A program made the translations under genes and the position numbers. From NCBI GenBank assembly GCA_947311475.1, contig CAMZLK010000042.1:1-64000 (forward strand): 64,000 nt of DNA. The letters are read 5' to 3'. The first letter of the stretch is position 1. The number at the start of each line of letters is the position of its first letter. Below are positions 5,185 to 52,012 of this stretch, piece by piece. The notes beneath the pieces were generated by a model, which saw only the letters and a program-made list of their open reading frames with translations, made no database searches and had not been told where the DNA came from. This DNA is from an uncultured Desulfocapsa sp. (lineage in GTDB: Bacteria; Desulfobacterota; Desulfobulbia; Desulfobulbales; Desulfocapsaceae).

Positions 5185-5853
5185 ATGGACTCAAACAAAA
5201 AGCGTTATACAATACTTCTGGCTGACGATCACACATTGATACGCCGTGGTATCAGAAATCTTATCTGTAACAATCCTGCGTTGGAAGTTATCGGTGAGGT
5301 TGGTGATGGTGAGGAATTGTTGGAATTCCTGGAAACAACCCAGCCTGAGCTTCTAATCCTTGATATTTCCATGCCCAAACTTACTGGTATAGAAGCAGTA
5401 AGCAGAGTGAAAAAGAAGTATCCGAAAATTAAAATTCTAATGCTTACCATGCACAAGAATAAACAATATTTTTATCATGCCATGTCGGCAGGGGCCGATG
5501 GGTATCTGATGAAAGAAGATTCGGATGAAGAATTGCTCCTTGCCATTAAGCGTATCCAGGACGGAAAATCCTACCTTTCTCCATTCCTTTCTCAAGATTT
5601 TGCCGACGATGTCATCTCGGCTTACCGAAATAATCGAAGTTCTCCTTTTGAAACCCTTACCAACAGGGAAAGAGAGGTCCTCAATCTTGTTGTAGAAGGG
5701 CACACCAGCAAGGTTATGGCTGATATGCTTTGTCTTAGTCCAAGAACGGTTGATCATCATCGGGCTAATTTACTCAGAAAATTTGATATGAAAAACAGTG
5801 TCGACCTTGTTAACTTTGCAATACGCAATGGATTCGTAACTCCAAGTGACTGA
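5185..5853 (+). CDS. LuxR/NarL-family response regulator
   Basis: REC domain (LLADDHTLIRRGI..LDISMPKLTGIEA) plus LuxR HTH (LTNREREVLNLVVEGHTSKVMADMLCLSPRTVDHHRANLLRKF); start could also be 5173. Confidence 0.9.
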   Translation: MDSNKKRYTILLADDHTLIRRGIRNLICNNPALEVIGEVGDGEELLEFLETTQPELLILDISMPKLTGIEAVSRVKKKYPKIKILMLTMHKNKQYFYHAMSAGADGYLMKEDSDEELLLAIKRIQDGKSYLSPFLSQDFADDVISAYRNNRSSPFETLTNREREVLNLVVEGHTSKVMADMLCLSPRTVDHHRANLLRKFDMKNSVDLVNFAIRNGFVTPSD

Positions 5854-6155
5854 GTTGATATTATTGGGTTCTTTCTTATCAACTATCTGGAATATTATCG
5901 ATTTTATTATGTAAAACTCTTTTTCCAAATAGCTGTCAAATCTTTTATATGGTGCTGCTTTTACAGCACAATATCCTGCATTAGGTAAAAATACCTATTG
6001 AAAAATACGTATTTCCCTCAATTGTATTTTAGTCCTGGCTGTGGTTTTTACACAAAGTGAGAAGAAACTGAATTGTTATTCAGCTAAAAAACCAGTCATT
6101 TCCCGCCTTAGGGATAATGGCTTGTTCTTTCTAAGAAAAACAATTTGTGTGGCGT

Positions 6156-6287
6156 TTAGTGCCTTACTCCATGATTCCTGCAATAAAAAACAGGTAGTGT
6201 AGACTCCGAGAAACTGAAGAAGGTTAATTGCAATTATATTGTTACGTTATATCACCAAGGCACTTACTTGCAGTTCACCTGCGTTAG
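6156..6287 (+). repeat. Repeat family B copy B2
   Basis: TTAGTGCCTTACTCCATGATTCCTGCAAT...AAGGCACTTACTTGCAGTTCACCTGCGTTAG. Confidence 0.85.
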
Positions 6288-6411
6288 CTCTTTCAAAGGA
6301 TACCGAAGAGCCCCGGTGCAACGAACGTATATTTCGTTTTACCTGGCTTGGAACCTTTGGCAGGATTGAATGTGCTGGATATTAAGAGATACAAAAGAGG
6401 GAATGGAAGTT

Positions 6412-6684
6412 ATGAATAAAGCAGAGCTTGTGGCCTCTGTTGCAAAGTCAGCAGGAACCACGAAAGTAAAAGCCGAAATGGTTTTAAATGGTATTCTTGA
6501 AACAATGGTGAAAACTATGCGAGAGGGTGAGAAAGTTTCTCTTTTGGGTTTTGGAACCTTTAGTGTCGTTCAGCGCGTTCAGAAAAAAGGGCGGAATCCA
6601 CAAACGGGGAAAGTTCTTATTATCCCGGCGCATAAGGCAGTTAAGTTCAAGCCGGGGAAGACTCTTTACGGTCGTGTGCAATAG
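6412..6684 (+). CDS. HU/IHF family DNA-binding protein
   Basis: MNKAELVASVAKSAGTTKVKAEMVLNGIL...GFGTFSVVQRVQKKGRNPQTGK. Confidence 0.92.
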   Translation: MNKAELVASVAKSAGTTKVKAEMVLNGILETMVKTMREGEKVSLLGFGTFSVVQRVQKKGRNPQTGKVLIIPAHKAVKFKPGKTLYGRVQ

Positions 6685-6754
6685 TTTGTAAGAGCTAAAC
6701 CTCCCGGGTGTTCCCCATAAAGAAGCCTGTTATGCCATTTTCTAATAAGTGGTT

Positions 6755-7552
6755 TTAAACCTGTTGAGTCTGGCGTATCTTCCAAAGGATTATCCCACCA
6801 AGCACCATCAATCCACTGAGAAGTTGTCCTCTGGTTATTGATCCCAATACAAAACCAATATGTTGATCCGGTTCCCGGAATAGTTCCACAATCATCCTGA
6901 GCAGGCCGTAGCAAATTAGAAAGAGGCAGAGTATGCTGCCGTGTGGCCAGTTTTTCTTTCCTTTCCACGGTTGTCCCTTGCTAATCCAGAGGATTGCGAA
7001 AAGCCCAACACCTTCCAGCAGCATTTCATAAAGTTGTGACGGATGACGTGGCTGTGGCCCGCCTCCCGGGAAAATCATGGCCCAGGGCACTGAAGATGTT
7101 CTGCCAAATAATTCACCATTGATAAAATTTCCCAGTCGCCCTAGTCCTAAGCCCACGGGGATAGTGGCAACGTAGAGATCGGCACATGTCCAGAAATCCA
7201 GTTTGTGTTTCCTTGTATAGAGGTAGCCACCGATAAGGCAGCCAATGCAGGCTCCGTGAAAAGACATACCTCCTGTCCATGTGGCAGGGATTTGCAGAGG
7301 ATGGCGCAGGTAGTATGAAAAATTATAAAAGAGAACATAGCCCAGGCGTCCTCCAATAATTACGGAAAGAATCAGAACCAGATTAAGATTTTCAAAGTAG
7401 GGTTCCAGTGCTTTGTACGAAAAAATTTTAATCTGTCTCAGAACAAGAAAATAGCTGGCACTAAAGCCAAGGACATACATAAGCCCATACCAGCGAACCT
7501 TTAGTGGGCCAATTCCAAATATTACAGGATCAATGTTTGGGAAAGGGATCAT
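6755..7552 (-). CDS. lgt: Prolipoprotein diacylglyceryl transferase
   Basis: Lgt motifs [33 protein letters not shown]. Confidence 0.95.
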
Positions 7553-9447
7553 TTCTTTTTTTGCCCCTGATATTTTATAAGGTGAACCTGGAGGACTGAA
7601 ATCGCAGCCGGAGTAACTCCCGATATTCGTGAAGCCTGACCGAGTGAACGGGGGCGGACTTTGCTCAGTTTCTCCACAACTTCATTGGAAAGACCAGATA
7701 GGGATTTGTAATCAATCTCATCGGGAAGCTCCATTTCTTCCATCTTTTTAAAACGAGCAACTTGCTCTTCCTGACGTTTGAGATATCCCTGGAATTTTAC
7801 CTGGAGTTGTATTTCATCCCGTGCTTCCGAGAGTACCAGTTGCTTGACAGACTCCTGCCCCTCTGGTGGGTCTGTTGGGAGCAGGCTGATTTGGGCAAGT
7901 GTTAGTTCGGGTCTGCGTAGAAGGTCAGACAGTGTGCATTTTTGTTTTAGTGCAACAGTTCCTTCAGCGACAAGGATCTTATTAGTTGCTTCATTTGGTT
8001 TTACATGGACAGATTCAAGAATGGTCACGCCATGTTCAAGTGCAGTCTGTTTTTTTAGAAATGCCTGGTACTCTTCGTCCTGTAGCAGTCCGATTTCGTG
8101 CCCAATTTCACATAATCTGGTGTCTGCGTTGTCTTCGCGAAGCAAGAGCCTGTATTCAGCCCGTGAGGTGAATAAGCGGTAAGGTTCTTTGGTCCCGCAA
8201 GTAACAAGATCATCAATGAGAACGCCGATATAAGCCTGAGCGCGGCTGAGAATAAGTGGTTCTTTGGCATGAACCATATGGACAGCATTGATTGCCGCCA
8301 TCAGGCCCTGTGCAGCAGCTTCTTCATAGCCTGAAGTTCCGTTAATCTGACCTGCCAGAAAGAGCCCGGGAACCCGTTTGGTCTCAAGGTTTGGTTTGAG
8401 TTCGAGGGGGTCGATGTAGTCGTACTCAATGGCATAACCGGGGCGTACGATTGTCGCTTTTTCCAGACCTTTAATGGAGTGGAGCATGGCAAGTTGGGTT
8501 GAGAGCGGAAGGCTGGTGGGAAGGCCATTTGGGTAGACTTCTGTTGTGTCAAGCCCTTCAGGTTCCAGAAATATCTGGTGTCGATCTTTTTCAGGAAAAC
8601 GCATTACTTTGTCTTCAATCGACGGGCAGTACCGCGCACCGATTCCTTCTATAATTCCGGTGTACATTGGTGATTTGTCAATGCCAGCCCGGATTGCGGC
8701 ATGGGTTTCAGGGTTGGTATAGGTAATATGGCAAGGTCGCTGAGGAAGTGTGTATTCCCCCTTGCTTGAAAAAGAGAAAAATGCCGAGGGTTGGTCGGAA
8801 TGCTGTTCTTCTAGCTCTGAATAATCAATTGACCGGGCATCAATCCGTGGGACAGTGCCCGTTTTCATTCGTCCCATGGTGAATCCAATGTTCTTGAACC
8901 AACCAGAAAGGCTTGCGGAAGGAGGGTCGCCCATGCGGCCTGCCGGAAAATTTTTAAGACCAATGTGAGTAAGTCCATTCAGGAAGGTACCGGTGGCCAC
9001 AATCACAGCTTTAACAGCTATTACCTCGTCAAGCAAAGTCTTCAGGCCGCATATTTTGCCATCTTCAACAATCAGGGATTCAACCTCCGTTTGCTTGATT
9101 TCAAGGTTTTCCTGGGATTCCATCACAGATTTCATTCTCAGACGATAGAGTAACCGGTCGGCTTGGGCACGCGATGACCTGACTGCGGGGCCCTTGCTGG
9201 TATTCAGTCTCCGAAACTGAATGGAGGTGGCATCAATATTTTTGGCCATTTCGCCACCTAAAGCATCAATCTCACGAACCAGATGGCCTTTTGCCAGGCC
9301 ACCAATGGCAGGGTTGCAGGACATGGCACCAATGGTATCTATATTGATGACTGTTACCAGTGTTTTACATCCCATTCTGGCTGCTGCAAGGGCAGCCTCG
9401 CACCCGGCATGGCCGGCCCCGATAACTGCTATATCATATGAATCCAT
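7549..9447 (-). CDS. mnmG: tRNA uridine-5-carboxymethylaminomethyl modification enzyme MnmG
   Basis: [23 protein letters not shown]...[23 protein letters not shown]. Confidence 0.97.
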
Positions 9448-43993: not shown

Positions 43994-44950
43994 TCAAATA
44001 GCGTCAACCAGCACCGAAGAAAGATCCACAACATCAGCACCGCATTTTTCCAGATTGACCATACATATTGGACATAAAGCAACAATCGGTTTCCCGGTTG
44101 CCTGTAATTCAGCTACTCGTCGCAGTCCAACCTCATCAGCAAGTTTTGGTGAAACTGATTCAGCAGGGCCACCACAGCAGTTTGTAAAAGAACCGTTGTT
44201 GTTGATTTCGGTACAGTTCACTCCCGCCTTGTTGAGTGCCGCACGTGGTGCATCTGAAACTTCAAGGTATCTTCCGTAGAAACAGGGATCATGCAGAGTT
44301 ATCTCGCCATGCTCTGCTTTTCCAGCAAGATCTGCCACTTCGAACCAGGTTTGTACCTCAAATGAGATGCCGGTAATCTTGGGATACAGAACTTTAAGGG
44401 CATAAGTTGTGTGTGGATCAACTGTAATTAGTTTTTTGATGCCGGCTGATTGCAGCTTTTTAGCTACAAAACGGGCATGGTTCTCAAAACCTTCCTGGTC
44501 ACCAAGATCATAGAGCAGAACACCAGAATATTCATCGAGGTCATGGTCATAGAAGAATGAGACATCGGATGCTTTTAAAATCTTGACCATATTGCCAAGG
44601 GTTGTAGCAGTTTTCAGCTTTTCATCCTGGCTGGCAATTTTTTGAAGCCCCATATTGGCTACGGTCTTTGGAATAAATTTTCCATATTTCAGATATTTTG
44701 CCATTGGTTTGTCTTCGTATTTCTCAAGATAGCCGGTGGCTGCTTTAATGTAAGGAACCAGTTGATACATCAGGCCGGTAAAGAGCAAGGCATCACCCGT
44801 TGCCGGGACATCTACTTCCTTCCACCAGGTGTTAAAACCTTCTTTATTTAAACCAAAGGGGTTGTGGGTCACACGTACATTATCTGCAATATTTTCTATG
44901 ATATCTTTTGGATCAAACATTTTATGATTTCCTCCATGAAGCAACTGCAT
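43994..44950 (-). CDS. HdrB/HdrD-like CCG-domain protein
   Basis: ITLHDPCFYGRYLEVSDAPRAALNKAGV...NCCGGPAESVSPKLADEVGLRRVAE...CPICMVNLEK. Confidence 0.85.
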   Translation of the reverse strand: MQLLHGGNHKMFDPKDIIENIADNVRVTHNPFGLNKEGFNTWWKEVDVPATGDALLFTGLMYQLVPYIKAATGYLEKYEDKPMAKYLKYGKFIPKTVANMGLQKIASQDEKLKTATTLGNMVKILKASDVSFFYDHDLDEYSGVLLYDLGDQEGFENHARFVAKKLQSAGIKKLITVDPHTTYALKVLYPKITGISFEVQTWFEVADLAGKAEHGEITLHDPCFYGRYLEVSDAPRAALNKAGVNCTEINNNGSFTNCCGGPAESVSPKLADEVGLRRVAELQATGKPIVALCPICMVNLEKCGADVVDLSSVLVDAI

Positions 44951-45224
44951 AACGTTTCAGGCTGAGGAGGATTCCTCCCGGATCAGCACCCCTGGGACAG
45001 GATTCGCTACAGAGTCCGCAATGCAGACATTTCCAGAGTTCATTTCTATTGAGAAGGATGCGATCCTTTGCACCAATCTGAACATAGCGAATCAGCTTAC
45101 GGGGAAAGCTGCCATCAATAAGGGGGCAGATGGCAACACAGGTGCCGCAGTTGAAACATTCCAGAGCTGTGTCCTCGCCATATTGTTTGAGGTCTTCGGC
45201 GAACTGGGGGCTAATTTTTGTCAT
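44922..45224 (-). CDS. HdrC-like 4Fe-4S protein
   Basis: CFNCGTCVAICPL and CLHCGLCSESCPRG. Confidence 0.85.
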   Translation of the reverse strand: MTKISPQFAEDLKQYGEDTALECFNCGTCVAICPLIDGSFPRKLIRYVQIGAKDRILLNRNELWKCLHCGLCSESCPRGADPGGILLSLKRYAVASWRKS

Positions 45225-45324
45225 TTCAGATCTCCAGAGAGATTTTGGTTTTCACTTATTTGTGGAACTCAACTATGCAACTATTCAGCTGCTGATAAAA
45301 ATAACTCAATCCAATCACGACGTT

Positions 45325-45633
45325 TCAGGCATTATCTTTAGCAACAAGTTTATAACGAAAATAAGCACCATCCTTGTTAGCTTCTGCAACCTCACCATAC
45401 TGTTTCAGGGTTGCCAGATACCAGATCACTCTGGAAATCGCGATCTTGGTGATTCCGGCAATTTCAGGGGCAGTGGCACCATCATCGCCGGTTAGTTGCT
45501 CTTTAAGGAGTTTCAAATCTTTTTTCTGATTTTTTACTCTGGCAGCAACCCTTTTAATGGAGTCTTTACGTTCTGCACGCAACTGCTTCATGGCCTCTTT
45601 TTTTTCCTGTGCTGCCTGGTCTGTGTCAGTCAT
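45325..45633 (-). CDS. Small winged-helix-like protein
   Basis: KEQLTGDDGATAPEIAGITKIAISRVIWYLATLKQYGEVAEANKDGAYFRYKL; start 45633, the ORF upstream of it is repeat A. Confidence 0.6.
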   Translation of the reverse strand: MTDTDQAAQEKKEAMKQLRAERKDSIKRVAARVKNQKKDLKLLKEQLTGDDGATAPEIAGITKIAISRVIWYLATLKQYGEVAEANKDGAYFRYKLVAKDNA

Positions 45634-45666
45634 GGTTTTATTATGTAAGTAAAAATTATCATTTAT

Positions 45667-45821
45667 GATGGACTCGTAAAAACTCTTCATCTCCTTCGTT
45701 ACTGCAAATTTACAATCTTTTCGACGTACTTTAGTACGCTGAAAAGATTGTAAATTTCCGTGCCTCGGATATGAAGTTTTTTACAAGTCCATCCAGTTTT
45801 TGACCTTTTTACGAATTTATC
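45667..45821 (+). repeat. Repeat family A copy A8 (155 bp, distinct palindrome arms)
   Basis: ATTTAT at 45661-45666 and 45822-45827; arms GCAAATTTACAATCTTTTC / GAAAAGATTGTAAATTTCC. Confidence 0.9.
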
Positions 45822-45827
45822 ATTTAT

Positions 45828-45982
45828 GATAAACTCGTAAAAAGGTTAAAATCTCGATGGCTAAGTAAAAAGCTTCATGTGCGAGGCGCACATTTTTTGT
45901 TTAATTTCGGCGTACTAAGGTACGTTGAAATTAAACAAAAAATGTAGCAACGAAGCAGATGAAGAGTTTTTACGACGCCATC
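45828..45982 (-). repeat. Repeat family A copy A9 (155 bp), opposite orientation to A8
   Basis: GATAAACTCGTAAAAAGG...ACGACGCCATC; shares ATTTAT with A8, third ATTTAT at 45983-45988. Confidence 0.92.
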
Positions 45983-46023
45983 ATTTATAAGATTATGGGT
46001 TGTCTTACTCAGTAAACGTTTGT

Positions 46024-47874
46024 CTATTCGGCAACAATCATATCAACCATAGCCTCGTACTGTTTCAGGCTCCATCCCTTGAGATCAATGGCTCTGCTGG
46101 GACAAACAGCTACGCAGGCGCCGCACCCCAGACAGAGTGCAGGTGTAACCAGTGCCTTTCCGTCAACCATTGCCAGGGCTCCGTCTGCAAGACAGGCGTC
46201 AACACAGGCGCCAGTTCCATCACAAAGAGCTGTGTCCACTTCAGCCACATAAGGATCAAGCTCTACCAATCCTTTACCAAGAAGAGAGGCAGCTTTTGCA
46301 GCAGCAGCTGCTGCACCATTACAGGCCTCACCTATGGTCATGGGGGCCTGGCAGGTTCCTGCAAGAAAAACCCCGGATACTGCCATTTCAACAGGTGCAA
46401 GTTTGGGATGTACTTCCTGCAGGAATTTGTCTGTTCCAACAGGTAGTTTCATCATGGAGACAATATCTGAAATATCTCCGGCTTCCATACCAGTGGCCAA
46501 CACTACCAGATCAACAGGCACCTCAATCTCTTCATTAAAGGTAAGGCCATCTTTAACAGTTACCTGAAGGGGATAATCACTGTCGCTGGATGGAATTACC
46601 TGGGGAGATTCGGTTGCATCAAAGCGGAAGAAAACCACACGATTCTCAGATGCTTTATCATACAAATCTTCCTGTCCACGCCCATAGGTACGGATATCAC
46701 GGTAAAAGTCATAAATATTTGTATCAGGAAACTGCTCTCTTATTTTATTCGCCATAAAGAGGACAGAACTACAACAGGTGCGTGAGCAGTATTCGTTGAG
46801 ATAACCGTTTTCATCTTCTTTGTGAATACCTGGGATCTGCCTGCTGCCAACACAGTGAATCATGGCGATGGAACGAATTTTTCGTCCGTCAAGTTCCAGC
46901 GTGGATGATCCTTCAACCTTGCCGACCTGTTTGATAAGATCTGGAAGGGTGATAACTTCTTTGTGTTTACCAAAACCATACTCGCCGTGATCTGGCCGAT
47001 ATGATTTGAATCCGGTGGCGAGAATAACTGCACCAGTTTCAATGATTTCTTCAACTACTGTATCTGTTTCAACACCTTCGAAGGGAACAAAATGCCCGGG
47101 GTGCTGTTCGTGATCCGATGGATCTGTGAAAACTGTTTTAACGCTTAAATCAAATTTTCCGATATATCCGTCAAAACCAACAAGTCTGCAATGGGTTTTG
47201 ACTGTAATATTCTTATGCTCGAGAACGGATTTTGCGAGTTGGCTGATCAGATCACTGGCCTTTTCCCCAAAGGGGGCAATTTTATCAAGCATGGCAGCAT
47301 TTCCGCCAAGAAATGGCGTTTTCTCAATGAGTACAACATTGAGACCAAAATCAGCAGCAGACAAAGCTGCTTTCAGTCCGGCAATTCCACCACCAATGAC
47401 AGTTACATGTTTTCTCGAATTCACCTGGATGGGATCAAGTTTTTCAAGAAGCCCGGCTTTCCCCACAGCTGCACCGACCAGTTTTTCGGCCTTAAAAGTG
47501 GCTTTTTCCCCATGCATAATCCAGCTGACATGCTCACGGATGTTTGCATGGTCGTATATGTAAGGGTTGCCGTTAGCTCGGGTGATTGCTCCACGGAATG
47601 TGCTTTCATGAAGGCTTGGTGCGCACGAGGCAACTACTACCCGGTCAATGAGGCCATCTTTCAGATCCTGGGTGATCAGATCCTGTCCAAGATCAGAACA
47701 CATGAAAGAATTTGTGCGGGCGACTACGACACCCGGCATCTTTTCGGCTGCGTCACGTACTTTTTCAACGTCCACATGATCGGAAATATTTCCGCCGCAG
47801 TAACAAACATATACGCCAATTTTTTCAGATCTGTTTACACTGTTTTCGTTTTTCTTTTCTTTCGGGTCACTCAT
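46024..47874 (-). CDS. HdrA-like FAD/4Fe-4S protein (616 aa)
   Basis: IGVYVCYCGGNISDHVDVEKV...VTVIGGGIAGLKAALSAADFGLNVVLIEKTPFLGGNAAM; C-terminal ferredoxin CLGCGACVAVCPSRAIDL. Confidence 0.9.
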   Translation of the reverse strand: MSDPKEKKNENSVNRSEKIGVYVCYCGGNISDHVDVEKVRDAAEKMPGVVVARTNSFMCSDLGQDLITQDLKDGLIDRVVVASCAPSLHESTFRGAITRANGNPYIYDHANIREHVSWIMHGEKATFKAEKLVGAAVGKAGLLEKLDPIQVNSRKHVTVIGGGIAGLKAALSAADFGLNVVLIEKTPFLGGNAAMLDKIAPFGEKASDLISQLAKSVLEHKNITVKTHCRLVGFDGYIGKFDLSVKTVFTDPSDHEQHPGHFVPFEGVETDTVVEEIIETGAVILATGFKSYRPDHGEYGFGKHKEVITLPDLIKQVGKVEGSSTLELDGRKIRSIAMIHCVGSRQIPGIHKEDENGYLNEYCSRTCCSSVLFMANKIREQFPDTNIYDFYRDIRTYGRGQEDLYDKASENRVVFFRFDATESPQVIPSSDSDYPLQVTVKDGLTFNEEIEVPVDLVVLATGMEAGDISDIVSMMKLPVGTDKFLQEVHPKLAPVEMAVSGVFLAGTCQAPMTIGEACNGAAAAAAKAASLLGKGLVELDPYVAEVDTALCDGTGACVDACLADGALAMVDGKALVTPALCLGCGACVAVCPSRAIDLKGWSLKQYEAMVDMIVAE

Positions 47875-47956
47875 AACTCATATACCCTTAATATTTTTAT
47901 TCGTTTTACGAAAATCCGGAAAAAAGTTTCTCTATTATCCGTCTTCTGGCTTCTTC

Positions 47957-49258
47957 TTATCGTCCAAGTGCGTTCATATAATTTGCAGCTTCCATGGCAG
48001 CAGCACCCGCTTCAGATATTGAATCAACAATATCTTTTGGGCCTGCGGCTGCACCAGCAACAAAAATACCCGTCTTGTCGGTTATTGTTGGGGCAATTGA
48101 GGGTTGTACGGTCTGGATAAAATGATCGCTTCCAGTGGATACCGGACAAATTCCTTTCGGGTTCCAGTCTGGCAAAACTCCAAGGGATAACACAACAAGA
48201 TCGTGGTTTTCAGTCGTTACTCCACCACCATCCTGAGCTTCAAAGTGAACAGCTGCTCCGCCATTTTCACCTGCATCAACTCTGGCTACTTTGCCCTTGA
48301 TAAACTGAATGCCCATGGCTTTGGCTGTCTGATAAAACTGCTCATAGCCTTTACCGAACGCCCGGATATCCATGTAGTAGATATAAATATCGGCTAGGGG
48401 CAGGGAACCGGACAGGAGCATGGCCTGTTTAATGGCATACATGCAGCAAAACCTGGAACAGTAAGGAATCCCCATGGATTTATCTCGGGAACCGGCACAT
48501 TGAATAAAGGCGATGGAGTCTGGTTCCATTCCATCGGAAGGCCGTAACACTCGATTGTATGGGCCATGGGGAGCAAGTAAGCGCTCCATCTGGAGCGAGG
48601 TGATTACATTGTCCACATTACCATTGCCATACTGAGGTTTACCTTCAATGGGAGTTTGCTCAAAGCCGGTTGCAAGGATTGCAGTTTTTGCTTCAACTCT
48701 AAAATCCACTGCTTTCTGGAAATAGTCTATCGCATTTGTGGGGCATACTTTTTCACACTTACCGCAGAGCATACATTCTTTAGTTGCAAGTGCTGCAACT
48801 TGGGGTGTTGCCGTGGAAAATGGAATCCGGATGGCTTTTGTTGCTGAAAAGCCGCCCTGTTCCAGATCATCCGTATATACAGGACAGACGTATTCACATT
48901 TGCGGCAGCCTATGCACTTGTCCTCATCAACGTAACGCGGATTTTGTGTTACATGGGCACTTACCTGGCCATTATCACTGGTCAGGGATTTGAGATCACA
49001 ATAAGTTCGTATTGTGATGTTTTTGTGATGTGCCGCAGACGACATTTTAGGGGTCGTGATACAACTGGAACAATCCAATGTGGGAAACACCTTGGATAGT
49101 CGGATCATTTTGCCGCCAATGGATATATCTTTTTCTATGATGACTACTGAATAATCCTGATCCGCAAGATCAAGGGCCGTTTGTAAACCGGCGATACCAC
49201 CGCCTATCACGAGTGCGTCACAGGTAATTGTCTGACTGTCTGCCATTTTGTTCTCCAA
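47957..49258 (-). CDS. HdrA/QmoA-like FAD/4Fe-4S protein (433 aa)
   Basis: DALVIGGGIAGLQTALDLADQDYSVVIIEKDISIGGKM, CIGCRKCEYVCP, CMLCGKCEKVCP. Confidence 0.9.
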   Translation of the reverse strand: MENKMADSQTITCDALVIGGGIAGLQTALDLADQDYSVVIIEKDISIGGKMIRLSKVFPTLDCSSCITTPKMSSAAHHKNITIRTYCDLKSLTSDNGQVSAHVTQNPRYVDEDKCIGCRKCEYVCPVYTDDLEQGGFSATKAIRIPFSTATPQVAALATKECMLCGKCEKVCPTNAIDYFQKAVDFRVEAKTAILATGFEQTPIEGKPQYGNGNVDNVITSLQMERLLAPHGPYNRVLRPSDGMEPDSIAFIQCAGSRDKSMGIPYCSRFCCMYAIKQAMLLSGSLPLADIYIYYMDIRAFGKGYEQFYQTAKAMGIQFIKGKVARVDAGENGGAAVHFEAQDGGGVTTENHDLVVLSLGVLPDWNPKGICPVSTGSDHFIQTVQPSIAPTITDKTGIFVAGAAAGPKDIVDSISEAGAAAMEAANYMNALGR

Positions 49259-49294
49259 TACTGCGGTTAACGCCTGTTGAAAGCCTCAAAATTT

Positions 49295-49464
49295 GATGGC
49301 GTTGTATAAACTCTTCATCTGCCTCGTTGCTACATTTTGGGTTTGATTTTAACGTACCTTAGTACGCCGAAATTAAATCAAAATGTGCGTTTCGCATATG
49401 AAGCTTTTCGAAGTCTGCGATATCTACTTAGCCATCGGGATTTCAACCCTTTTACGAGTTTATC
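49295..49464 (+). repeat. Repeat family A copy A10 (about 170 bp, extra segment as in A7)
   Basis: GATGGCGTTGTATAAACTC...TTTTACGAGTTTATC with AAAATTT on both sides. Confidence 0.88.
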
Positions 49465-49491
49465 AAAATTTGATTCTTTATATTTCTTTTT

Positions 49492-49518
49492 TACTTACTT
49501 ACAGTTTACCTGCGTTAG
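49492..49518 (+). repeat. Repeat family B terminal fragment B8
   Basis: ACTTACTTACAGTTTACCTGCGTTAG; overlaps the stop codon of the MvhD-like gene. Confidence 0.75.
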
Positions 49519-49925
49519 TCCATCTCCGGCAGGCCAATCTCCTGCACAAGATCATTCATCAAATTAACCTCTTTTAAGAAGGCACGATTACAAACCGTAC
49601 AGATGGCGGTAAGTCTGAGCCTGCGAATATCAAGATCCTGTTTCTTCATTAACTGATAAACGGCGTCAATGCGGGTTGCCAGGGCTTTATAGGCACCCTC
49701 ATACGGACATTCTTCGCCGCAGGACATTATTATGATACCACTGATTCCTTTTTTAAAGCAGTCGAGGTAAAATTGTTCCGGAAACATTACCGGTGCACGG
49801 ACCCGTAAAATATAGGTATTGGCAGGGTAACTTGAATGTGCCTGTCCCACAGAGTCTGCACCTGGATAGGCGCAACTGTCTGTGGCCAGAATCAGGATTT
49901 TTTTCTCTTTATCCGGAGATTCCAT
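49515..49925 (-). CDS. MvhD/HdrF-like iron-sulfur subunit
   Basis: ILILATDSCAYPGADSVGQAHSSYPANTYILRVRAPVMFPEQFYLDCFKKGISGIIIMSCGEECPYEGAY. Confidence 0.85.
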   Translation of the reverse strand: MESPDKEKKILILATDSCAYPGADSVGQAHSSYPANTYILRVRAPVMFPEQFYLDCFKKGISGIIIMSCGEECPYEGAYKALATRIDAVYQLMKKQDLDIRRLRLTAICTVCNRAFLKEVNLMNDLVQEIGLPEMD

Positions 49926-50069: not shown

Positions 50070-50378
50070 CTATTTGTTACGTGTTATGTCGTGTTTGTTA
50101 TGGCTATCAGCTTCAACCGATTTCTTCTCTAAGATAATTCGAAAGTGTGTCTCATCTTCCAGTGACTGTCCAGAAATTACCTTAAAACCACCCTTAGGCA
50201 TTACCTTGAACAGTTCTCCGGGAAGATTTGCTCCTTCATAGAGGATCTCCAGTTGATCGCCAGCTTGTATTTCCCTATATGCCTGGTTGAATTTCAACAA
50301 GGTAAATGGATCGAGCAATCCTTTTAACGTTAGTTTTCGTTTTACATGCATCGATGAGCCAATTTTGTACAAGTCCAT
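50070..50378 (-). CDS. TusA/SirA-like small protein lacking the catalytic Cys
   Basis: LTLKGLLDPFTLLKFNQAYREIQAGDQLEILYEGAN versus TusA G-L-x-C-P-x-P-x-L-K; ATG at 50348 is an alternative start. Confidence 0.65.
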   Translation of the reverse strand: MDLYKIGSSMHVKRKLTLKGLLDPFTLLKFNQAYREIQAGDQLEILYEGANLPGELFKVMPKGGFKVISGQSLEDETHFRIILEKKSVEADSHNKHDITRNK

Positions 50379-50428: not shown

Positions 50429-50446
50429 TAGCAACAGATGTGCCAA
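50429..50446 (-). promoter_or_regulatory. Sigma-54 (-24/-12) promoter driving the TusA-like/Hdr operon
   Basis: Minus strand TTGGCACATCTGTTGCTA fits TGGCACR-N4-TTGCW; cognate-type activator encoded divergently. Confidence 0.8.
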
Positions 50447-50593
50447 TGAGTCCTTAGTTTTTTTATAAGAGGCTGTTTGCCTGTAACGTACAGGAAATAC
50501 ACAATAAATATTTTATTGGGATGTTCATTTTCCAATGGTATTTATTATAATATTGCTCAGTTCCTGCGAGGGTGTTAAATTGAACTTAATGAA

Positions 50594-52012
50594 ATGTTAA
50601 AATTTAAACAGGAGGCTCCTGTGAGTAATGAAGAGTTAAATGCATACTGGAAAACAGTGGTTGATACTATTCAAGAAGGGGTGATGATTGTAAACTCGGA
50701 AGGAGTTATCATTTCTGTGAATAAGGCGTTTGAAAACCTCACGGGATATTCATTGGATGAGCTAATTGGTAATTCCTGCACTATCCTTAACTGCACCTCC
50801 TGTAAATTGCAGCGATCGGGTGACCCCGAACACTGGTGTACTCTTTTTCTCAATGGGCTTCTTGAGAAACAGCGTTGTGTTCTCATGAGACGGGACTCAA
50901 GCTATGTTCACATCCTGAAAAACGCCTCTGTGTTGCATGATGCCGGTGGAAGGGTAATTGGGGCAGTGGAAACCATGACAGACATAACCGAATTGCTTGA
51001 ACGGGAGACAACCATTGAAGCATTTAAAAGAGAGCTTAATAATAGAGATACTTTTCATGGCATCATTGGCATCTCGGCGTCCATGCAACGAATTTTTGAT
51101 TTAATTACTAATGCCTCAGACTCGGATGCTCCTCTTCTTGTTCTTGGAGAGAGTGGAACCGGAAAAGAACTTATTGCTCAGGCCGTGCATGAATGCAGCA
51201 ACAGAAAAGATGCCCCTTATATTAAAGTTAATTGTGCATCGTTGAATGAATCATTGCTGGAGAGTGAACTGTTCGGACATGTTAAAGGTGCTTTTACCGG
51301 GGCTCATCAAGACAGGGAAGGGCGTTTTGGGGCGGCAGATGGAGGGAGTATTTTTCTTGATGAAATAGGTGATCTGCCCATGTCAACACAGGTGAAACTG
51401 CTGCGTGTTCTGGAAGAAAAAACCATTGAACGGGTGGGGGACAATCAATCCATTGCCATTGATGTCAGGATAATTACTGCAACCAATCGTGATTTAGCTG
51501 GTATGGTTCGTAAGGGACTATTTAGAGAAGATCTTTTTTACCGAATTAATGTGATTCCCCTTAATATTCCGCCTGTACGGGATCGAAGCAGTGATATTCC
51601 TCTACTGGCAGAATCATTTTTCAGGAAATTACAGTTAAAAAGCGGAAAAAACATTCAGAATATATCAAGCCATGCCATGGATCTGCTCATGCGGTATCCA
51701 TGGCCGGGGAATGTGCGGGAAATACGCAGCACCTTTGAATATGCCTTTGTGACCTGTCAGAGTACGACCATTGAACCGACGGATTTACCACTGGTTATTC
51801 AGCAGCTCATTCTGGAAGAAGCAAAAGAAGGAATTGGTGTAATTCCCAAGATATCTGGTCTTAGCATCAATGAGCGAAGAGAACAGGAACTTATTGCTGC
51901 TTTGGAACAGACAAAAGGCAATCAGACAAGAGCCGCGGAGATACTTGGGGTCTCAAGAGTTACGGTTTGGAACAGGATGAAACGTTATGGGCTGCAATCC
52001 AATCGTTCGTAA
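50594..52012 (+). CDS. PAS-domain sigma-54-dependent transcriptional activator
   Basis: PAS then AAA+ LVLGESGTGKELIAQAVHE, ELFGHVKGAFTGAHQDREGRF, FIS HTH NQTRAAEILGVSRVTVWNRMKRYGL. Confidence 0.94.
   Translation: MLKFKQEAPVSNEELNAYWKTVVDTIQEGVMIVNSEGVIISVNKAFENLTGYSLDELIGNSCTILNCTSCKLQRSGDPEHWCTLFLNGLLEKQRCVLMRRDSSYVHILKNASVLHDAGGRVIGAVETMTDITELLERETTIEAFKRELNNRDTFHGIIGISASMQRIFDLITNASDSDAPLLVLGESGTGKELIAQAVHECSNRKDAPYIKVNCASLNESLLESELFGHVKGAFTGAHQDREGRFGAADGGSIFLDEIGDLPMSTQVKLLRVLEEKTIERVGDNQSIAIDVRIITATNRDLAGMVRKGLFREDLFYRINVIPLNIPPVRDRSSDIPLLAESFFRKLQLKSGKNIQNISSHAMDLLMRYPWPGNVREIRSTFEYAFVTCQSTTIEPTDLPLVIQQLILEEAKEGIGVIPKISGLSINERREQELIAALEQTKGNQTRAAEILGVSRVTVWNRMKRYGLQSNRS

Follow-up and report, generated by a model that had tools for sequence, protein, structure and literature searches.

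The 64,000-nucleotide stretch of DNA analysed here (hereafter the window), from an uncultured, sulfate-reducing Desulfocapsa sp., carries an operon for a soluble Hdr complex that resembles Qmo of sulfate reducers and belongs to a family whose members are, as a rule, encoded together with sulfur carriers. Comparison of gene neighbourhoods shows that the predicted complexes of this family share a constant core of MvhD and two HdrA-like proteins, referred to below as HdrAa and HdrAb, which is encoded with TusA and DsrE and is followed by an exchangeable terminal module. Because nearly all relatives' gene sets encode sulfur carriers, the soluble complex probably exchanges electrons with carrier-bound sulfur, in one direction or the other. 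The reading preferred here, to which we assign a probability of roughly 0.45, is that it does so in an oxidative form, with electrons passing from carrier-bound sulfane sulfur to a disulfide or to the menaquinone pool. An earlier note on this DNA had named neither partner nor substrate for the complex, and the range of both is narrowed by the TusA and DsrE encoded in the relatives' operons.

The association with sulfur carriers is seen at the level of loci and of genomes. A TusA-type gene is part of the cluster at 40/44 family loci and a gene for a DsrE-type sulfurtransferase at 37/44, whereas 73 other Hdr/Qmo neighbourhoods (1.0 Mb in all) contained one TusA-like gene and no DsrE of the family type. 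In the aligned examples, TusA has the sulfur-binding CPGP motif and its gene is directly 5' of mvhD, with about 15 bp between the end of tusA and the start of mvhD in several loci (e.g., L057 and L166). Genomes were compared in a sample of 395 Desulfobacterota drawn evenly over the phylum, so that the frequencies are rough. Family-type DsrE occurs in 26 of the 27 sample genomes with the operon, a count that excludes the window's own genome and two partial copies (G259 and G302), and the sole exception lies on a 4.6-kb contig. It is found in 21 of the 367 other sample genomes, at least six of which have a divergent version of the operon. The divergent operon encodes TusA, MvhD, an HdrAa of ~705 amino acids (aa) with a GltD-like insert (identified in locus L113), a 572-aa HdrAb, HdrC, HdrB (or a QmoC-like protein), and DsrE. 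In the Thermodesulfobacteria-type HdrAa of L113 (positions 5817-7931), the insert is ~240 aa long and combines a match to Fer4_20 with a degenerate nucleotide-binding fold.

The C-x-P-C site of DsrE is conserved in 20/20 aligned sequences. In three genomes, representing at least two lineages, an in-frame TGA falls exactly at the first cysteine of this site (L113, 11194-11547; L170, 4647-5003, minus strand; L176, 2576-2932, minus strand). Such a codon at the predicted sulfur-binding cysteine is a probable selenocysteine codon, which is consistent with the selenocysteine-containing DsrE-like proteins with a U-x-x-C motif already reported from Sargasso Sea data (PMC1088965); the selenocysteine insertion sequence folds 3' of the TGA are plausible, not decisive. 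A further TGA, in the DsrE gene of G262, was dropped as a selenocysteine candidate, being at another position and in a locus without the core genes.

Orthologues of the operon were found in 30/395 of the sampled genomes, in addition to named metagenome-assembled genomes (MAGs), and in isolates of Desulfacinum (D. infernum and D. hydrothermale). For the carrier-tied operon in general the count is about 34/395 sampled genomes. Their presence is patchy, with the operon in 3/20 genomes of the window's genus. The same gene order is recurrent in dozens of Desulfobacterota genomes at HdrAa identities of 54-84% and is thus not due to chance. dsrA is over the cut-off in every one of the 28 sample genomes that have the Hdr operon (here the window's own genome is counted and the two partial copies are again excluded), compared with 188/395 overall. 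The copies in G259 and G302 are the two most divergent; they are without TusA, MvhD, HdrBC, and DsrE, and their genomes have no dsrA over the cut-off.

The module that follows HdrAb varies. It consists of HdrC and a one-CCG HdrB in the window and most relatives, of a two-CCG HdrC-HdrB fusion in L187, L188, and L190, and of a QmoC-like protein with a ferredoxin and ~5 transmembrane segments in G006 (from the window's genus), G033, G101, G111, G133, G158, G182, and G364; a QmoC-like end also occurs in the divergent operon type, in G231. In nine relatives these QmoC-like paralogues match the qmoC profile over nearly its full length, with 175-207 bits against a cut-off of 300. The statement in the earlier note that no membrane subunit is present therefore holds for the window operon but does not extend to several relatives, one of the same genus, in which a QmoC-like protein stands in HdrB's place. 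The QmoC-bearing loci keep TusA and DsrE with the core. As these carriers persist when HdrB is exchanged for a QmoC-like protein, we infer that the core is where sulfur is handled and that the terminal unit is an electron outlet or inlet, the point of exchange with quinone or disulfide.

The genes of the window operon are as follows, with coordinates given as positions in the window; the operon genes are on the minus strand and the gene for the sigma-54 activator, listed further below, on the plus strand.

43994..44950, minus strand: HdrB-like subunit (Pfam CCG, 1.1e-8)
44922..45224, minus strand: HdrC-like subunit with two [4Fe-4S] motifs (match to NF038018, qmoC, over residues 4-94, 4.7e-22)
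45325..45690, minus strand: winged-helix protein of 121 aa with long N-terminal helices (orthologues in 38/44 family loci)
46024..47874, minus strand: HdrAb, 616 aa (Pfam and NCBIfam domains; own clade in tree)
47957..49258, minus strand: HdrAa, 433 aa (Pfam and NCBIfam domains; own clade in tree)
49515..49925, minus strand: MvhD-like (MvhD/FlpD) subunit (PF02662, 8.6e-19)
50070..50378, minus strand: T2, a TusA-fold protein of 102 aa, upstream of mvhD (weak Pfam TusA match, 0.04, below the cut-off)

The first six open reading frames are those of the earlier note, whose coordinates and strand proved correct and whose predicted identities agree with the Pfam and NCBIfam domains; the 5' limit that it had set for the operon was too narrow, as T2, a sigma-54 promoter, and the divergent activator gene also belong to it. 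HdrAa has a flavin adenine dinucleotide (FAD) core with an inserted 2x[4Fe-4S] ferredoxin and is without an N-terminal HdrA domain, its alignment to HdrA2 covering HdrA2 residues 134-561, i.e., the FAD core and inserted ferredoxin. HdrAb has the N-terminal HdrA domain and a ferredoxin at the C-terminus, and its FAD core has no ferredoxin insert. HdrB contains a single intact CCG motif (C223, C258, C259, C293, and C296), the five cysteines of which are invariant in an alignment of 19 orthologues, and its N-terminal CCG domain is without cysteines. The AlphaFold model of the winged-helix protein has a mean confidence score (pLDDT) of 86 and matches generic ArsR/MarR-type winged helices in the PDB; identification of this protein as DsrD was dropped, since the fold search returned only such generic folds and no Pfam match was obtained.

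The description of the operon as reminiscent of QmoAB-HdrBC was borne out in terms of domain layout. Like QmoABC and QmoAB-HdrBC, the system has two unequal HdrA-like flavoproteins, of which one has an inserted ferredoxin and the other an N-terminal HdrA domain, together with an MvhD domain and an HdrC/QmoC-N module, and some relatives add a QmoC-like membrane subunit. HdrAa is thus QmoA-like, HdrAb plus MvhD resembles a QmoB split in two, and HdrC is similar to the N-terminus of QmoC. Membership of canonical Qmo was not upheld. In trees of the HdrA core, the family forms its own clades, with support of 100/99 (HdrAa) and 100/98 (HdrAb), outside those of QmoA and QmoB (100/100 each), and contig C217 of the same genome has a locus (L129) that encodes canonical AprB, AprA, QmoA (424 aa), QmoB (750 aa), and QmoC (399 aa) together; the qmoC of that locus scores over the profile cut-off. 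The operon can hence be ruled out as the genome's canonical Qmo, and these two checks, both proposed in the earlier note, did not yield the outcome that it had named as speaking against its reading, namely both HdrA proteins in the canonical Qmo clade with this operon as the only copy. The window system further differs from QmoABC and QmoAB-HdrBC in having MvhD as a separate gene, its own promoter and regulator, a family linkage to TusA/DsrE, and a canonical QmoABC elsewhere in the same genome, while the membrane subunit QmoC is missing from the operon. No aprBA was found beside the window operon or among the recurrent neighbour genes of its relatives. QmoAB-HdrBC has been reported from sulfate reducers that are Gram-positive and from some deltaproteobacterial ones (PMC10504309). 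In the Gram-positive arrangement qmoAB is followed by hdrBC beside aprBA/sat, whereas the window has HdrBC but no adjacent aprBA. Type I and type II Qmo have also been described, with type II QmoAB placed near HdrA (PMC10504309). The present family likewise lies near HdrA, in a tree without the named type II QmoAB sequences (Vulcanisaeta, Ammonifex), and it may be part of the type II QmoAB set of that study.

Within the trees, the HdrAa family groups with the N-terminal halves of HdrL and with archaeal short HdrA proteins (100/96), and the HdrAb family with the archaeal partner protein (100/85). Geocrenenecus archaea share the HdrAa-HdrAb-MvhD arrangement, but its neighbours there are hydrogenase-like genes and not TusA/DsrE. 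HdrL of Desulfobacterium autotrophicum (PMC2702500), a fused HdrA-HdrA with adjoining MvhD, is thereby among the nearest relatives of the A half, and proteins of this type look like HdrAa and HdrAb joined together; the present family differs in being split over two genes that are accompanied by HdrBC or QmoC and, in relatives of the window's copy, by TusA/DsrE. The window's own genome has three loci (L130, L131, and L132) with HdrL-type proteins of ~1000 aa, each requiring readthrough of one TGA, and these genes adjoin HdrB, hydrogenase, or formate-dehydrogenase-like genes. Methanogen HdrABC-MvhAGD, with a single complete HdrA, a two-CCG HdrB, and the MvhA/MvhG hydrogenase, is not matched by the operon, which is without hydrogenase genes.

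Compared with its relatives, the window's copy is atypical in its carriers. T2 and its same-genus orthologue share just 30% identity, against 65-86% for the remaining operon genes. Orthologues of T2 include clear TusA proteins (Pfam TusA 6.7e-14 in L166), and its predicted model matches YeeD/TusA structures weakly (E-values of 2e-3 to 2e-2, template modelling score ~0.6). The alignment shows it to be without the sulfur-binding cysteine and also without the C-terminal C-x-C of its closer orthologues. In many Desulfobulbales the T2-type second TusA-like protein (e.g., L133, 6108-6386; L134, 10336-10614; L135, 7761-8039) has lost the N-terminal cysteine and has a C-terminal C-x-C. The remaining TusA genes of the window's genome belong to a TusA-DsrEFH-II-like cluster (C152, L194) and to a YedF-like type (C148, L195). 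In comparisons of the operon genes other than T2 with same-genus orthologues, nonsynonymous divergence (dN) was well below synonymous divergence (dS), the latter being largely saturated; judged from these substitutions the window complex is under purifying selection and has been maintained though its dedicated TusA and DsrE are gone. With the carriers and the T2 cysteines lost, the complex must borrow other carriers or serve a different partner, i.e., be repurposed. The assembly comprises 220 contigs at 95.6% completeness, and a carrier on a missing contig is possible.

According to the preferred reading, TusA and DsrE would supply sulfane sulfur, in persulfide form, either to the core or to an enzyme that acts with it, and the flavin and iron-sulfur centres of the core would shuttle electrons between this sulfur chemistry and the terminal unit. 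As donor or acceptor, HdrB would exchange electrons with the disulfide of a protein such as DsrC, and the QmoC-like version would use menaquinone. The direction would be oxidative, with sulfane sulfur as donor and expression under sigma-54 control, and the window copy would draw on other carriers, for which the C152 cluster is a candidate source, or on another partner. The oxidative direction is preferred, by an admittedly weak argument, because menaquinone-linked forms exist and transfer of menaquinol electrons to a persulfide would be energetically uphill. Bifurcation or confurcation by the complex is possible. Several observations weigh against sulfane sulfur oxidation: the window operon is without TusA and DsrE and its genome without family-type DsrE; HdrAa and HdrAb contain no recognisable known sulfur-oxidising or sulfur-reducing active site; the operon, unlike sHdr, is not linked to a lipoate-binding protein (0/12 genomes tested for GcvH/LbpA by GCV_H, the matches being on other contigs or far away); and co-occurrence with DsrAB is partly taxonomic, with dsrA in 4/6 genomes of the divergent operon type.

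The same linkage to TusA/DsrE would be expected if the complex ran in reverse as a cytoplasmic persulfide reductase, in which electrons derived from H2, formate, NADH, or ferredoxin would pass via MvhD/HdrA and reduce TusA/DsrE persulfide to sulfide. MvhD is usually where a hydrogenase or formate dehydrogenase feeds electrons in, and the GltD-like insert (Fer4_20) of the thermophile-type HdrAa could bring in NAD(P)H; however, no hydrogenase or formate dehydrogenase gene is recurrent among the relatives' neighbour genes, and the menaquinol-linked version would have to drive electrons uphill to the persulfide, so that this direction is rather unlikely. Sulfane sulfur might instead be uninvolved, with TusA/DsrE as accessories (in regulation or in the supply of Fe-S or Mo cofactor) to a general flavin-based bifurcating Hdr acting on a disulfide such as that of DsrC. 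The Hdr-MvhD core and the HdrB CCG site fit a classical Hdr, and the persistence of the window copy without TusA/DsrE under the constraint described above agrees with such a role, which we nonetheless regard as distinctly unlikely given that TusA and DsrE survive replacement of the terminal module and recur across divergent lineages, and that the Cys-to-TGA exchange in DsrE suggests a reactive, catalytic cysteine, as would be expected of a selenocysteine position. A second QmoAB-HdrBC feeding electrons to adenosine phosphosulfate reductase is very improbable: such complexes are reported in other sulfate reducers (PMC10504309) and the domain layout is QmoA/QmoB-like, but aprBA neighbours neither the window operon nor, recurrently, its relatives, the genome already has canonical aprBA-qmoABC, and the family falls outside the canonical Qmo clade.

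Two known sulfur systems bear comparison with the family. In sHdr (hdrC1B1A-hyp-hdrC2B2 with lbpA, tusA, and dsrE), the genes for an Hdr-type complex are likewise linked to those for TusA and for sulfurtransferases of the DsrE type, a linkage that the relatives share at the frequencies given above and the window's own copy lacks. The gene content differs, as the present operons combine two large HdrA, MvhD, a single HdrB/HdrC set, a winged-helix protein, and the QmoC alternative; they have no LbpA, which is essential in sHdr (PMC6067878), and they occur with dsrAB in anaerobic Desulfobacterota. The YTD cluster (yedE-tusA-dsrEFH type II; PMC13293266; PMC12998232) similarly provides sulfate reducers and disproportionators with a sulfur relay of TusA and DsrE-type proteins but contains no Hdr genes and uses other TusA and DsrE types. 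Hdr/Qmo ideas have been put forward for sulfur disproportionation (PMC4911364), and no description of a tusA-dsrE-linked Qmo-like operon in sulfate reducers was found in the open-access papers searched, so that the family of sulfur-carrier-tied Qmo-like Hdr complexes is apparently undescribed. Work on cytoplasmic sulfur oxidation and disproportionation by sulfate reducers has so far focused on YTD/DsrEFH-II carriers and reversed Dsr. The family's operon offers a concrete candidate for where the electrons of sulfane sulfur go or come from, as it combines a TusA and DsrE of its own with a Qmo-like redox complex, whose end may be membrane-bound or soluble, and with a dedicated sigma-54 switch. 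The wider proposal, that it represents a third Hdr-based sulfur pathway of sulfate-reducing Desulfobacterota, lipoate-independent and TusA/DsrE-fed, in which a Qmo-like complex oxidises protein-bound sulfane sulfur and delivers electrons to menaquinone or a soluble disulfide, is tentative and somewhat unlikely; if true, it would open to these bacteria a way of oxidising or disproportionating sulfur.

The putative control region lies between T2 and the divergent activator gene.

50430..50445, minus strand: sigma-54 promoter TGGCACATCTGTTGCT
50480..50494, no strand: perfect palindrome CCTGTACGTTACAGG, a candidate activator site in the window genome only
50594..52012, plus strand: divergent PAS-sigma-54 activator (Pfam Sigma54_activat, 1.1e-70)

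The promoter motif is present in 16/25 loci with a divergent activator, against none on the opposite strand and a mean of 0.02 in shuffled sequences. The activator itself occurs in 33/44 family loci, a few of these being weak (~40% identity) and non-adjacent matches. The palindrome was dropped as a conserved upstream activator site because it is absent from the other loci. A GTTAA-n-TTAAC inverted repeat is found in 14/25 loci (shuffled mean 0.14) and is not among the inverted repeats listed for the window. A variant locus of a Desulfobacteraceae MAG (L127, 2331-13345) has a related sigma-54 activator and T2 beside two huge HdrA (1134 and 1142 aa), MvhD, and HdrC. In L228 (8326-9275), apparently a decayed operon, HdrAa, HdrAb, TusA, and MvhD are gone; what is left are genes for the sigma-54 regulator, for DsrE, for a short HdrC, and for the winged-helix protein, the DsrE gene having its in-frame TGA at another site. 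In thermophile-type operons (L217, 15863-16237; L226, 1992-2378; L231, 15674-16045), the sigma-54 activator is replaced by an ArsR-family regulator encoded directly 5' of tusA.

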